Assembly: GCF_000246855.1 (NCBI RefSeq)
Contig: NC_016609.1
Location: 4,712,001 to 4,776,000, forward strand
Direction: 5' to 3'
From: Niastella koreensis GR20-10
GTDB taxonomy: Bacteria; Bacteroidota; Bacteroidia; Chitinophagales; Chitinophagaceae
DNA length: 64,000 nucleotides
In this document: piece by piece, positions 58,536 through 64,000 of the stretch
Numbering within the stretch: position 1 is the stretch's first letter
How the letters are laid out: each line of letters begins with the position of its first letter
Translations under genes and position numbers: made by a program
The notes under the pieces: generated by a model
Databases searched by the model: none
Told to the model about the DNA's origin: nothing
What the model saw: only the letters and a program-made list of their open reading frames with translations

Positions 58536-59381
58536 CTATTTTTTTATGCTATGAATAGCTTCATCGATATCCTCAATAAACACTTCATCCTGCATTTCGC
58601 AATAGATGTCTGACAAATGGTGATCGGCGGCTGCCAGGGTCCTGGCTTTTTCCAAACTTGCCATAGCTTCTTTTTCCTGGCGCAGTGATTGATAGATGAG
58701 GCCCTGGTAATAATAGATCTCGGCGTAATTGTCGTATTTTTTTAGTTGCAGGTCAAGATCAGCCAGGGCGCCTGCATAATCTTTGGTTCTCATTTTGGTT
58801 ACAGCCCGGTGGATGTAGTCTGAAAACCCTATCCATTTATCGCCCTGCTGCGCCAGCACACTGTCAATACCCACCGCAAAATAATGGAAGGCCTGCGGGT
58901 AATTCCCCAACTCCCGTTCACAAAGCGCCATAACAATGTACAAATTATAATTGCCATCGCCACTATTCATAGGGTGAAATCCCGATAGCGTGTCGAACCT
59001 GCGCAGATCGGTTAAAGCACCGTTATAATCCCTGAGAAATTTAAACAGGCACCAGCCCCGGATGCCTAAAAAAGGATAAGGCTTCAAATCAACCGCCCGG
59101 TCCATATATTTTCGCCAGGTATAAAAATCGCCGCGTTTGAGATAAGGAACGCTTATCTCCCGCCAGGCTTCGGCATAATCAGGACATGTTCTTATAGCAC
59201 TGTCGTAGTATTGCTGCGATTTGCGTGTGCCTTGCGGAAATTGATCGGCTGCATTGTATATAAGACAGGCTTTGATATGGCAACTATCGTGAAATACATT
59301 GCAGTTGGTTTGTGCATGGCACCATTGCATAACTATGAGCAAACCCAACAACAGGCTGCTTTTTTTCAGGGTAGTACACAT
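58536..59381 (-). CDS. Exported TPR-repeat protein
   Basis: A 281-aa protein with a signal peptide (LLLGLLIVMQWCHAQ) and several tetratricopeptide-like repeats: SQQYYDSAIRTCPDYAEAW, GDFYTWRKYMDRAVDLKPYPF, YNLYIVMALCERELGNYPQAF, KDYAGALADLDLQLKKYDNYAEIYYYQGLIYQSL, REKEAMASLEKARTLAAADHH-like end. Predicted periplasmic scaffold. Its start overlaps the preceding gene's stop by 16 nt, suggesting translational coupling. It is the last gene of the export operon. Confidence 0.85.
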   Translation of the reverse strand: MCTTLKKSSLLLGLLIVMQWCHAQTNCNVFHDSCHIKACLIYNAADQFPQGTRKSQQYYDSAIRTCPDYAEAWREISVPYLKRGDFYTWRKYMDRAVDLKPYPFLGIRGWCLFKFLRDYNGALTDLRRFDTLSGFHPMNSGDGNYNLYIVMALCERELGNYPQAFHYFAVGIDSVLAQQGDKWIGFSDYIHRAVTKMRTKDYAGALADLDLQLKKYDNYAEIYYYQGLIYQSLRQEKEAMASLEKARTLAAADHHLSDIYCEMQDEVFIEDIDEAIHSIKK

Positions 59382-59911
59382 GCTATCCCTCCTTTATTTA
59401 GTTTGAAGGTGATGTATTGATAGCTGTCGTAGTTCTTATCTTTATATACAGCTGGCTGCCAGCCCCGCAACTCTTTTGTAAGTTTCAATAACCGGCTGGC
59501 TATACGAGGATCGAATTTGACAGGCTGGTATTGAGTATTCAATTCATATACCCGGAAGCGACCGGTTTGTCCCGAACAATTTATTATAAAACGAATAGTG
59601 AGGTATCCGTTCCCGCCCGCAGGATCAACAACAGGTTTGTAGCTATTTTTAAAGTAATGTTCTATTTCTCTTTTATGCTGTTTATAGTAAGAACCGGTAT
59701 TGTAGTATTGAAAAACTATTTTGGAATTACAAACGGTAAAGCCGGGATCGTCGAGTGCAGCATTGAACGCAAGATCTCCTGTATTGAGGGGGAAACTGTC
59801 AACGCGTACATAAACTGAATCGTTCTGCTGTGCAAAAGCAGTGCCTCCACCGGCCAGCATTAAAAGGAAGAACAAGGTTCTTATTTTTCGTTGCGCTACC
59901 AACTGCATCAT
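59366..59911 (-). CDS. Exported protein with TonB-C-terminal-like domain
   Basis: A 181-aa protein: N-terminal signal (RTLFFLLMLAGGGTAFAQ), a linker, and a C-terminal domain with GYLTIRFIINCSGQTGRFRVYELNTQYQPVKFDP and LLKLTKELRGWQPAVYKDKNYDSYQYITFKLNKG. This matches the beta-alpha-beta pattern of TonB_C domains (GxVxVxFxIxxxG followed by WxPAxxxGKxVxxxxxxxixF). It lacks the N-terminal membrane anchor and proline-rich linker of true TonB, so it is probably a secreted relative, with a structural role in the export system. Gap of 6 nt from the HlyD-like gene. Confidence 0.75.
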   Translation of the reverse strand: MMQLVAQRKIRTLFFLLMLAGGGTAFAQQNDSVYVRVDSFPLNTGDLAFNAALDDPGFTVCNSKIVFQYYNTGSYYKQHKREIEHYFKNSYKPVVDPAGGNGYLTIRFIINCSGQTGRFRVYELNTQYQPVKFDPRIASRLLKLTKELRGWQPAVYKDKNYDSYQYITFKLNKGGIACVLP

Positions 59912-59917
59912 CTGTTT

Positions 59918-60622
59918 TTAATTAAAGTAACCGAAGATCCGTTGGATCAATCTTCTGTTACCGGTTATCAGTTGCGCTTCCCCTTCCAGTAAAGCGGTGG
60001 AAGGCAGGGCGCCGGCAGGAAGATGAATACCACCAGGAAAAATAACGGTAACAAGATAGTGTTTTTTATCCGGTACCAGCGACATGCCGGCAGTAGTTCC
60101 GGAAAATGAAAGGGTTTCTTTATTTCGGGTACCTCTCATGGTAACGTTTACCGGCAGCCCATTACGAACCCGCAATGCTTTTTCAACCGGGATCAACATG
60201 CGCCCCATCATGGCCGGGGTATCAGCAGGCACTACTACGGCTATCAGGCGGCCTTTTTCAATGGAAGTGGTTTCATACAGGAAGCTGAGTTTTCCGGTAG
60301 CAGGACTTTTTATAATACGTTTGGTTTGCGGGCCTGCGATCAGGCAAAGCGGTGAATCTTTTTGCACCAGCTGGCCATCGCCCACCAGCGTGTATAGCAG
60401 GCCGCTATCAGGCGCTGTGATCCGGGCTACCTGCCTGTCGGTACCCAGGGTAATGGCGCCTGTAATGCGTTCCGGTACATAAATGATCCAGGAAAATACC
60501 AGTAATATCATTACAATCCATAAGATCAATCCCGAACCATATAAAATGATCAGGGGCGGTGGCTTTCCAATAACCTCCCGCGTAACTTCCTTTTCTTCGG
60601 ATAACTGGTCCAACTTGCTCAT
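59918..60622 (-). CDS. Short HlyD-like membrane-fusion protein
   Basis: A 234-aa protein with one membrane segment (LIILYGSGLILWIVMILLVFSWIIYVP, residues about 24-50) and then two lipoyl/barrel-type halves (GLLYTLVGDGQLVQKDSPLCLIAGPQTKRIIKSPATGKLSFL; VRNGLPVNVTMRGTR). The long coiled-coil hairpin of normal HlyD/AcrA adaptors is missing, so it is roughly half the usual length (400 aa or more). It is the adaptor for the adjacent ABC exporter, which lies 11 nt upstream, and would couple it to an outer-membrane exit or peptidoglycan. Confidence 0.8.
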   Translation of the reverse strand: MSKLDQLSEEKEVTREVIGKPPPLIILYGSGLILWIVMILLVFSWIIYVPERITGAITLGTDRQVARITAPDSGLLYTLVGDGQLVQKDSPLCLIAGPQTKRIIKSPATGKLSFLYETTSIEKGRLIAVVVPADTPAMMGRMLIPVEKALRVRNGLPVNVTMRGTRNKETLSFSGTTAGMSLVPDKKHYLVTVIFPGGIHLPAGALPSTALLEGEAQLITGNRRLIQRIFGYFN

Positions 60623-60633
60623 ATGAAATTATA

Positions 60634-62832
60634 TTAATTACCCAGTTCCAGTTGATTTTTGATAAGCGTAAAATAATGTCCTTTTGTAGCCACCAATTGC
60701 TCGTGGGTGCCGCATTCCACAATGCTGCCTTTACTCATTACCACAATCTGATCGGCGTTTTTAACGGTGCTTAACCGGTGTGCAATGATCAGCACGGTTT
60801 TGCCTTTATAAAACTGCGATAACTTACCCAGGATCTCCTTTTCATTATTGGCATCGAGCGAACTGGTAGCCTCATCCAAAAAGAGATAGGATGGATTTTT
60901 ATAAACAGCCCTGGCAATAAGCATTCGTTGCTTTTCGCCCCCACTCATCGAAACGCCGTTATAACCCAGGTTGGTGGTATACCCATTGGGTAAACTTTCA
61001 ATCAACGTACTGAGATTGCTTATTTCCACTGCGTCTTTTAACCGTTCTTTATCCAGCGGTTCATCTGATGCCGATTCGGTAATGTTCCTGGCAACGGTAT
61101 CGGAAAAAATAAAACCATCCTGCATTACCACGCCACACTGCCCGCGCCACTGATCGGTATTTATGGCCAGGATATTTTCATCCGCCACCCTGATCTCGCC
61201 CTGCGTTATTTTGTACAGCTTCAGTATCAACTTTAATAAAGTGGTTTTACCGCTTCCGCTGGCGCCTACGATCGCCGTCACTTTTCCCTGTGGAATTTCG
61301 AGATTGATATTATTCAGTATCCACCTGGTGGCGCCGCCATACCGGAAGCTGGCATTTACTAATTTGATGTTACCTGGTTGAGGTGCTACGGTGACCCCAT
61401 TTTGGGCCAGCTCATCTTCCTCTGATAATTCATTGTGGATCTCTGCAAGCCGCTTGATACTTAGTCTTGCATCCTGGGCCGATTGAAAAAAGGTGATCAG
61501 GGAATTAATGGGCGCGTTCAGTTGCCCGATGATGTATTGAATAGCCATCATGCTGCCGAGCGTGATCCGTCCCTGCACTACATTTTCTGCAGCTACAATG
61601 ATGATGATAATATTCTTTAGCTGGTTTATAAAGTTGGCGCCGTTTGACTGGATCTGCCCCAGCGATAATCCCTTCATCAACACTTTATACAACCGCATTT
61701 GAATAGTTTCCCATTCCCAACGGCGGCGCAGCTGGCTGTTGTTAAGCTTTATTTCGGTGATCCCATTGATCAATTGAAGAATGCCGCTTCTGTTGGCCGC
61801 TGCTTCATCGTGCCGCTGGTAATCGAGGATGGCCCGTTTTTTTACAAACAAAACCACCCAGCTGATGTAAACGATGGTGGCTACCAGGAAAATAAAAAAG
61901 ATCTTCCCATCATAAGTTGCCAGAATAGAACCAAAGATAACCAGGGTCACCATCGAGAACAGCACATTGAGCGTGGTGGATGATAAAAAATTCTCGATGC
62001 GCTGGTTGTCTTCAATTCGTTGTAACAGATCGCCCGTCATTTTTGACTCAAAGAATGAAACAGGCAGTTTCATGATCTTCGCCAGAAAATCGGAGATAAT
62101 GGAAATGTTTATGCGCGCACTCAGGTGCAGCAACAACCAGCTTCGCACCGTTTCAATAGCTGACTGTGAAATAAACAACATCAACTGTCCCAGTAAAATA
62201 ATATAGATAAACGACAGGCTTTTACTGCCTATGCCATAATCAACGATCGCCTGGGTGGTAAAGGGAAAGATCAACAAAATAAGCGTAGCCGCTATAAGCC
62301 CCAGTAATAACTGGTACAGGATCTTTTTATGTGGCCGGATATAATGCCAAAGGAATTTTCCTTCTTCCCACATCTTCTTTTCCGGCGCACCCTCGTTATC
62401 ATAAAATTCTTTATTCGGTTTTAAGATCAATACCGGGCCGGCACTGGCTTTGTCGGAATTTTGCAACCACCCTTCCTGAAATTTATCGTGCCGGTATTTT
62501 AATAAGCCTATGGAAGGATTTGCTACATAAATATACCGGTTGTCGGTTTTGTAAACGACCACAAAGTGCTTTTGTTTCCAGTGGGCGATGCAGGGTAACG
62601 GCGCATCGTCCTTTAATTTTTGAAAATCAATATTTACCGACAGCGTTTTAATGCCGATCGATTCTGCCGCCTGTGAAAGCCCCAAAAAACTAACCCCATT
62701 CCGGGTTATATGACTCTTTGTTCTTAAATACTCTACACTATAATTCTTCCCATAGTGTTTTGCAATCATTTTTAAACACGTGGGACCACAATCCATTTGA
62801 TCGAGCTGACGGAAAAAAGGAAATTTTTTCAT
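60634..62832 (-). CDS. Peptidase-C39-containing ABC exporter (ABC-type peptide secretion)
   Basis: ATG 62832 (MKKFPFFRQLDQMDCGPTCL) gives 732 aa; the longer frame overlaps the upstream gene. N-terminal C39 domain: catalytic Cys15, His89 (KHFVVV) and Asn105 (VANPSIG), where most members have Asp. Six membrane segments follow (about 155-440). The ATPase domain has Walker A GASGSGKTT, signature SGGEKQRM, Walker B LFLDEATSSLD and AHRLSTV. Such proteins cleave double-glycine leaders and export the peptide. The upstream methyltransferase (10 nt) and downstream adaptor (11 nt) form one operon. No GG-leader precursor is visible in the window. Confidence 0.93.
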   Translation of the reverse strand: MKKFPFFRQLDQMDCGPTCLKMIAKHYGKNYSVEYLRTKSHITRNGVSFLGLSQAAESIGIKTLSVNIDFQKLKDDAPLPCIAHWKQKHFVVVYKTDNRYIYVANPSIGLLKYRHDKFQEGWLQNSDKASAGPVLILKPNKEFYDNEGAPEKKMWEEGKFLWHYIRPHKKILYQLLLGLIAATLILLIFPFTTQAIVDYGIGSKSLSFIYIILLGQLMLFISQSAIETVRSWLLLHLSARINISIISDFLAKIMKLPVSFFESKMTGDLLQRIEDNQRIENFLSSTTLNVLFSMVTLVIFGSILATYDGKIFFIFLVATIVYISWVVLFVKKRAILDYQRHDEAAANRSGILQLINGITEIKLNNSQLRRRWEWETIQMRLYKVLMKGLSLGQIQSNGANFINQLKNIIIIIVAAENVVQGRITLGSMMAIQYIIGQLNAPINSLITFFQSAQDARLSIKRLAEIHNELSEEDELAQNGVTVAPQPGNIKLVNASFRYGGATRWILNNINLEIPQGKVTAIVGASGSGKTTLLKLILKLYKITQGEIRVADENILAINTDQWRGQCGVVMQDGFIFSDTVARNITESASDEPLDKERLKDAVEISNLSTLIESLPNGYTTNLGYNGVSMSGGEKQRMLIARAVYKNPSYLFLDEATSSLDANNEKEILGKLSQFYKGKTVLIIAHRLSTVKNADQIVVMSKGSIVECGTHEQLVATKGHYFTLIKNQLELGN

Positions 62833-62842
62833 GAATGCCTGT

Positions 62843-63991
62843 CTATGTTTTGACAATGGTGAGAATTTGTTCGCGTACCAAAAATTGGGTAAGGGTAAGC
62901 ACAGACTGAATGGAATCATTGTCGCCTGATTGATTACCATATTCAATGGCCAGTTGGCGTACTGATCTTTTACCATTTACCAGGAAGAGAAAATCAATCA
63001 CCTGCCTGGCGTCTTTATACTCCTTACCCTGGTAGCAATTGTATAAAGTATGGCTGATGGTTTCACCGGCACTGCTTTTTTCTCCCGTTATAGTAAACCT
63101 GAAATTTGAATGAAGACTGATAACACTATCAGCATTGAGGTAGGCAGCAGTTATTTGCGGATCGGCTGCTTCTTTTTTCCGGGCTGCATACACCCAGTTA
63201 GCGTAATGATCGGCATGCATTTTTTCACCCGTTTTCATATGCCAGGCGCCGGCCGTGTTTTCATAAACGCTTTCATAATCATATTTGACCAGGTAGGCTT
63301 TAATATCCTCGGCGGTGAACATTGCCTGTACCTGGCTGAAATTATTGCCCAGGGGACCAAAATGAATAAACAGTCCGTCTTTTTTAAGCACCCTGTTTAT
63401 TTCGGGAAACAGTTGTGGGAACGGGAGCACATCGGTAAAATAAACCGAGAGTATACAGGATACAGAACGATCAGGCAGGGGCAATTGCGTGGCATCAGAC
63501 AAAAAATAAGCAATCTTATCGTTGATGTGAGCCCGGTCGGTTTCGGTATAACCAACTGCCGCCGCTGAGGCAGTCAGGCTGTTGGTGCTGTGTTTATTAT
63601 CCCTGATCTGGGAAAAGTTGAGGTCCGCAAAATTGATCTGCTTCCCTTTCGCGATCCCGTTATAGAACGATGCCATGGGAAAGGCCAGATCAGTTGCATA
63701 CAGGTGATCGAAACGATCGCTGATGTCCCAGGCTATACGTCCCAGTCCCGCGCCCAATACCAATGCCGTTTGCGTGTCATGACAATGTTCGCTGATAACA
63801 GCTGATAGACTATTGCGAATAATACTCAATTGTTCTTCTGCCTCCGGAAAACCGCACCAGTCTCTTTTCAGGTAGTTAAACGCTTTAACCTGGAACAGGT
63901 CCTGGAATTTATTGTTTACCGCTACATTCAGTAATTGTTTTTTGCTGAAATATTTCTCAATACCATCGATAGCATGCCGGATAAGTCCCAT
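62843..63991 (-). CDS. N2227/carnosine-methyltransferase-like SAM enzyme with PqqD/RRE-like C-terminus
   Basis: A 382-aa protein. Residues about 20-280 resemble the N2227 family: NNKFQDLFQVKAFNYLKRDWCG, the SAM-binding ALVLGAGLGRIAWDISDRFDHLYATDLAFPMASFYN, FLSDATQLPLPDRSVSCILSVYFTDVLPFPQLFPEINRVLKKDGLFIHFGPL. Residues about 290-382 (SLHSNFRFTITG...VIDFLFLVNGKRSVRQLAIEYG...VLTLTQFLVREQIL) look like a winged-helix PqqD/RRE-type domain. Together with the adjacent C39 exporter this suggests leader-guided peptide methylation. The ATG at 63991 is 9 nt from the window end and the frame is open upstream, so the gene may start further right. Confidence 0.7.
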   Translation of the reverse strand: MGLIRHAIDGIEKYFSKKQLLNVAVNNKFQDLFQVKAFNYLKRDWCGFPEAEEQLSIIRNSLSAVISEHCHDTQTALVLGAGLGRIAWDISDRFDHLYATDLAFPMASFYNGIAKGKQINFADLNFSQIRDNKHSTNSLTASAAAVGYTETDRAHINDKIAYFLSDATQLPLPDRSVSCILSVYFTDVLPFPQLFPEINRVLKKDGLFIHFGPLGNNFSQVQAMFTAEDIKAYLVKYDYESVYENTAGAWHMKTGEKMHADHYANWVYAARKKEAADPQITAAYLNADSVISLHSNFRFTITGEKSSAGETISHTLYNCYQGKEYKDARQVIDFLFLVNGKRSVRQLAIEYGNQSGDNDSIQSVLTLTQFLVREQILTIVKT

Positions 63992-64000
63992 ATTTGAAAG

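Follow-up and report, generated by a model that had tools for sequence, protein, structure and literature searches.

The DNA analysed here, hereafter the window, is a stretch of 64,000 nucleotides from Niastella koreensis GR20-10 (contig NC_016609.1, positions 4,712,001 to 4,776,000), and its last five genes are the downstream part of an operon that is cut by the window edge. An earlier note on this DNA had described five tightly packed minus-strand open reading frames (ORFs) and placed a precursor peptide gene just beyond position 64000. Both statements agree with the parent genome, which consists of one 9.03-Mb contig and in which a GG-leader ORF heads the same operon 4.7 kb after the window end. 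Judged from its sequence, the complete nine-gene operon most likely makes, modifies and secretes a small peptide. Its minus-strand order is precursor, TonB-type barrel, oxygenase, CmoA-like methyltransferase, CARNMT1-like methyltransferase, C39 exporter, adaptor, TonB C-terminal-domain (TonB-CTD)-like protein and tetratricopeptide repeat (TPR) protein. The features are given below, where the label L002 stands for G000:C1:4768000-4787999 and the coordinates in parentheses continue the window numbering past 64000.

58536..59381, minus strand: TPR protein, 281 residues, with homologs next to the oxygenase at 38 of the 47 loci
59366..59911, minus strand: TonB-CTD-like protein, 181 residues, with homologs in 22 of 47 loci
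59918..60622, minus strand: HlyD-type adaptor, 234 residues, without coiled-coil hairpin (ORF and alignment)
60634..62832, minus strand: C39 peptidase/ABC exporter (Pfam domains; listed ORF start 62976, likelier start 62832)
62843..64000, on to 64273, minus strand: CARNMT1-like methyltransferase with winged-helix-like tail, 476 residues (parent genome)
L002:8282-8989 (64281-64988), minus strand, outside the window: CmoA-like methyltransferase
L002:8986-10164 (64985-66163), minus strand, outside the window: oxygenase with the fold of the α-ketoglutarate (aKG)-HExxH enzymes
L002:10181-12613 (66180-68612), minus strand, outside the window: TonB-receptor-type barrel
L002:12649-12678 (68648-68677), minus strand, outside the window: stem-loop between precursor and barrel
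L002:12687-12842 (68686-68841), minus strand, outside the window: precursor peptide, 51 residues

The intergenic gaps from the precursor to the TPR gene are 73, 16, -4, 7, 10, 11, 6 and -16 nt, the last four of them within the window when the C39 gene is taken to start at 62832. This start (MKKFPFFRQ) fits the 732-residue protein of Niastella vici and leaves the 10-nt gap. The methyltransferase start that the earlier note had set at 63991 had to be moved, as the ORF runs past the window. Moreover, a 13-bp stem-loop separates precursor and barrel, in a region where such sites exceed chance (22 vs 10.9 expected), and a similar one lies 3' of the precursor in N. vici, with the outer G-C pair changed to A-T.

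The precursor peptides and the Cys-His pair

Related loci were collected by the aKG-HExxH-type oxygenase, a gene outside the 64-kb window. The set comprises 47 oxygenase loci, namely the N. koreensis locus, two from a phylum search, 38 from a pattern search of genome contigs and six from later profile searches. When oxygenase rows were counted, four partial or short sequences (L032, L044, L052 and L053) and the five degenerate second copies of the oxygenase tree were excluded.

The first gene of the operon encodes the precursor, whose leader and core meet at ELMEMITGG/VEGDCHPGDPTC, so that the core after the GG leader is VEGDCHPGDPTCKTGDTGDVLA; the corresponding junction in N. vici is GG/NETDCHPGDPNCNASVES. 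Precursors with a Cys-His (CH) pair after GG are present at 41 of the 47 loci (61 ORFs), and two Chitinophaga loci, L024 and L028, have GL/AAAACH in place of GG, which brings the total to 43 loci, with the two GL-leader rows identified by eye. The earlier note would have given up its peptide-export proposal if no relative had a precursor-like ORF near the locus and the C-terminal fold were unrelated to PqqD/RRE; with a GG-leader precursor in the operon and CH precursors at these 43 loci, the sequences favor that proposal. In 49 of the 61 cores, four residues stand between GG and CH, placing CH at core positions 5-6, and the Cys of the pair is the sole Cys in 38.

The 61 cores were chosen by CH, and Cys and His are equally constant there by construction. 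For a non-circular control, leader-like GG ORFs were picked regardless of CH at 41 loci. Because 54 of these 64 ORFs have CH within 12 residues, while the runner-up dipeptide reaches 20, the CH pair is regarded as the likeliest modification site. A Markov simulation for GG followed by CH gave 0, 0, 0, 1 and 0 occurrences in five sets, compared with 51 in the real sequences. The pair is also the best-supported substrate because it persists from locus to locus despite differing neighbour enzymes, which are methyltransferases in some cases, LanB/LanC in L012 and an ATP-grasp protein in L024.

These same neighbours could point to an ordinary Bacteroidota lanthipeptide or graspetide cluster, since the L012 oxygenase has LanB and LanC as neighbours, and a LanB-type protein occurs in L044 and the ATP-grasp protein in L024. 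However, the CH pair and the oxygenase are common to loci with and without such enzymes, and we regard this explanation as very improbable. For N. koreensis, a standard cluster of either kind was rejected, as none of the nine operon genes matched LanB/LanC or ATP-grasp proteins.

In NCBIfam and Pfam searches, none of ten precursors scored above a cut-off, and no published description of the family was found in the open-access literature, most subscription papers lying outside that search. As for the product, a metal-binding or antimicrobial role can be guessed at. Other precursor-like sequences are also present at these loci. Upstream of the CH precursor at L023:9069-9543 are three short ORFs with GG followed by a Q[ST]SS(I/M)IIED repeat and no CH. 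At L024 and L028 the GL leader and AAAACH core start have an ATP-grasp protein next door, and the peptide could possibly carry the CH modification and graspetide-type rings at once. A 'grasp-with-spasm' pair is presumed at L024, L028, L031 and L039, for which Pfam supports just an ATP-grasp domain, in L024.

The oxygenase and the methyltransferases

The operon oxygenase has the fold of the ChlB HExxH domain (8s5f) and of SjiH (22ob), which are aKG-HExxH peptide oxygenases. The literal HExxH does not occur in N. koreensis, where the motif is HQCGH with Glu replaced by Gln. HQxxH is the majority motif, found in 33 of the 40 rows keeping HxxxH, and HExxH occurs in the other seven. The N. koreensis protein gave no match to the NCBIfam model TIGR04267, while 11 of 36 relatives match it at E up to 1 (best 8.5e-5) and a remote relative, L005, exceeds its cut-off. 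Because neither the literal HExxH nor a score over the TIGR04267 cut-off was found, the protein is called a divergent relative of these oxygenases and not a member, and its use of iron and aKG is putative. It had no match in a plasmid collection.

Besides the intact gene, a second, degenerate oxygenase copy is present in L042, L045, L046, L047 and L051 (Kordia, Aureivirga and Mucilaginibacter), in which the second motif His is lost in all five and the first in four. These copies occur exactly at the loci whose precursor core has CHxxxCH. At L013:9186-10835, the oxygenase ORF, 549 residues in all, continues into a TonB-CTD-like domain, through a fusion or a lost stop. As well, L020, L024, L026, L027, L028, L036, L043 and L049 each have an oppositely oriented aldo/keto reductase gene next to the oxygenase locus, with a Pfam match for L020.

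The likeness of the larger methyltransferase to carnosine N-methyltransferases, seen in the earlier note, is borne out by Pfam CARME (39.7 bits vs a cut-off of 27) and by a fold closest to CARNMT1. The next fold matches are OvoM/OvsM, which are histidine-imidazole N-methyltransferases. With regard to a putative methylation at the histidine N(π), an Asp aligned with CARNMT1 Asp316 is present in 10 of 10 sequences, and a Trm112p match was found in the N-terminal piece in one of nine relatives. The earlier note had also likened the tail to PqqD and RiPP (ribosomally synthesized and post-translationally modified peptide) recognition elements. This is weakly supported by hhalign (score 16.3, P 0.0037, compared with at most 8.8 in 10 shuffles, shuffled alignment columns being the null here and below) and by a weak Pfam PqqD match (E 0.022) in one of nine members, and the winged-helix-like tail is absent from four of nine aligned relatives. 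In the full-protein model, the tail consists of three strands, three helices and one strand. Because a CARME-like gene is present in just 11 of the 47 oxygenase loci, methylation, as read from gene content, is not the step common to them.

The CmoA-like protein scores 154.5 against TIGR00740, below the cut-off of 193.3. CmoA Arg199 binds the carboxyl group of the cofactor (PMC3663124), and this position is Ala in the N. koreensis protein and Thr in 8 of 8 aligned relatives. Carboxymethylation was rejected as its reaction, because the position is not Arg.

We also considered that the oxygenase acts on Cys, or joins Cys to His in a crosslink or as an oxidised thiol, after which the methyltransferases cap the product. 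By their selection, the 61 cores keep Cys as constantly as His, and most have no second Cys. Moreover, a Cys-Tyr crosslink made by another aKG enzyme is reported for a RiPP in the available part of PMC12636437, and OvoA, which uses Cys and His as substrates, is represented among the methyltransferase fold matches by structure 8khq. However, the reactions reported for the oxygenase fold, in the parts of the sources available, are hydroxylations and one oxidative backbone cleavage, and chemistry at Cys is considered doubtful beside oxidation of His.

The exporter, the adaptor and the envelope proteins

In the C39 exporter, which the earlier note had recognized correctly, the C39, ABC-membrane and ABC-ATPase domains all exceed their Pfam cut-offs, and the catalytic Cys and His of the peptidase are present. 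Two more C39 proteins are found in the N. koreensis genome, at G000:C1:1052370 and G000:C1:2793513.

The adaptor was termed a 'stub' in the earlier note, and its 234 residues are indeed few compared with 423-442 in 28 relatives without a barrel gene. Complete adaptors are available for 32 loci; those of the four loci that also carry a barrel gene of this type (both Niastella, Aureivirga and Mucilaginibacter) are 169-317 residues long. The alignment shows that the coiled-coil hairpin is what is missing, entirely so in Niastella and Mucilaginibacter and in part in Aureivirga, so a hairpin-lacking adaptor accompanies the barrel in 4 of 4 loci and occurs in 0 of the 28 others. The count leaves out L039, whose adaptor runs off the contig end, and L053, whose adaptor ends at a stop codon 56 bases short of the contig end, with the hairpin region retained. 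L040, which has a full-length adaptor, was counted as barrel-less; its 302-residue protein gave a weak 22-bit match to the barrel profile, and Pfam sees just a CarboxypepD-like domain in it. The four barrel loci fall on two separate branches, and the oxygenase tree and the C39 tree, each built from one gene, each need at least two origins for them.

TonB-dependent barrels are known mainly for import, according to the available part of PMC6434023. The barrel might therefore re-import or sense the mature peptide as a metallophore or signal, with export by a TolC-type channel elsewhere, and a Cys-His peptide could bind metal. Set against this are the coincidence of barrel and hairpinless adaptor, the minimum of two origins that each gene tree requires for it, and the same partial source, in which a TonB-dependent transporter, Oar of Myxococcus xanthus, is needed for secretion of PopC. 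Re-import or sensing together with such a channel has, in our estimate, slightly less than an even chance. On the same three grounds, the barrel is about as likely to be an exit for the product as a receptor for it.

The TonB-CTD assignment of the earlier note is supported by a profile-profile comparison (hhalign) with eight TonB_C domains of the same genome. The score was 41.8 with P 4.7e-7, and the best of 20 shuffles reached 15.0, while Pfam matched 0 of 19 members of the family, and PDB sequences gave just matches at E about 1. The N-terminus of the TonB-CTD-like protein, judged by eye, is presumably signal-peptide-like.

Beyond the window, at L002:16936-19993, genes for a TIR-domain protein, a MAP3K_TRAF_bd/TPR-S protein and a patatin-like protein were also identified, the last two adjoining on one strand. 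The group looks like a defence-type cluster.

The proposed pathway and comparison with known systems

The precursor, its leader, the enzyme folds, the exporter domains and the operon layout are read from sequence or fold, and from these we infer each reaction, its site and the exit route. In the proposed pathway, the oxygenase, an aKG/Fe enzyme of the HExxH zincin-like fold, would oxidise core positions 5-6, the Cys-His pair, with β-hydroxylation of His as the likeliest reaction. The CARNMT1-like enzyme, for which the winged-helix tail may serve as a guide, would methylate the imidazole of the same His, and the CmoA-like enzyme would add a second methyl group. The C39 exporter would cleave after GG and transfer the 22-residue product to the periplasm. 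In Niastella, the hairpinless adaptor presumably could not reach a TolC-type channel, and the product would use the operon's TonB-type barrel as its exit or be recognised there, a step in which the TonB-CTD-like and TPR envelope proteins may assist. On balance, we favor this scheme of a RiPP operon as a whole, with reservations.

Several observations weigh against it. The N. koreensis oxygenase has no NCBIfam or Pfam match, and besides Gln for the motif Glu it has Tyr where 33 of 36 relatives have His; therefore its activity may differ from that of known enzymes or be lost. The HQCGH protein might then be non-catalytic and bind or present the precursor, leaving methylation as the real tailoring, and the degenerate second copies at five other loci would fit such a role. 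However, Gln is the majority state, both motif His are kept, and the oxygenase is 76% identical between N. koreensis and N. vici, although the first motif His and its neighbouring residues were in the search pattern and their conservation is partly built in. We regard a non-catalytic protein as improbable. CH is missing from the opening 12 residues of ten of the 64 leader-like ORFs, among them an ORF of L039 that has it further along. No CH precursor was found at 4 of the 47 loci, of which L017, L032 and L053 have little or no contig sequence upstream of the oxygenase and L044 is without that explanation. The methyltransferase model has a mean pLDDT (predicted local distance difference test) of 69, N. 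vici is without the CmoA-like gene, and the catalytic Asp position of C39 is Asn in both Niastella, a residue that we take to serve as in papain-like enzymes. Adaptor and barrel may have been transferred jointly, though each gene tree calls for two origins or more. The system is also rare, being found in 4 of 394 genomes of the family of the window (Chitinophagaceae), in 11 of 397 genomes of the family of G586 (three matches between E 1e-7 and 1e-3) and, with an earlier two-row profile, in 5 of 395 genomes of the phylum.

According to these sequences, the operon resembles other RiPP systems with GG leaders and C39 export, and would have an aKG-HExxH-type oxygenase as its tailoring enzyme. A stronger claim, that of a new, thinly distributed Bacteroidota RiPP family defined by CH oxidation at core positions 5-6 by a distinct HxxxH subfamily, with subsequent His N-methylation in Niastella and some others and, in some members, a barrel replacing TolC as the peptide's exit along with the loss of the hairpin, is speculative and in its full form rather unlikely.

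Compared with the aKG-HExxH peptide oxygenases (ChlB, SjiH and TIGR04267), the Niastella protein shares the fold, but Gln mostly stands for Glu here, the protein itself is below TIGR04267 detection, and the precursor is of its own type, with CH at core positions 5-6. In dozens of genomes, a divergent branch of this oxygenase class, which was recognised recently, is now connected with a short and concrete substrate motif, and the CH motif would let one co-expression experiment read out the oxygenase chemistry.

Unlike CARNMT1 and OvoM/OvsM, the methyltransferase is bacterial and lies in a peptide-export operon, with a Trm112p-like N-terminus in one of nine relatives and a winged-helix-like tail in some. 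The presence of a CARNMT1-like enzyme in such an operon suggests that bacteria methylate a histidine of a secreted peptide.

The Bacteroidales C39 RiPP clusters (PMC10352776, available in part) likewise have C39 exporters, GG motifs and, according to a figure legend, membrane fusion, outer-membrane and tetratricopeptide proteins, whereas the Niastella operon has an adaptor without hairpin and a TonB-type barrel gene after that of the precursor. The text of that paper does not contain the terms HExxH and 'hydroxyl'.

Finally, the likeness to Oar and PopC, as far as the available part of PMC6434023 goes, lies in a TonB-type barrel proposed as the outward route for a cargo first found in the periplasm. 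PopC is a protease, whereas the cargo here would be a 22-residue peptide with a putative exit through the barrel, and the coincidence of hairpinless adaptor and barrel makes outward peptide transport through TonB-type barrels directly testable.
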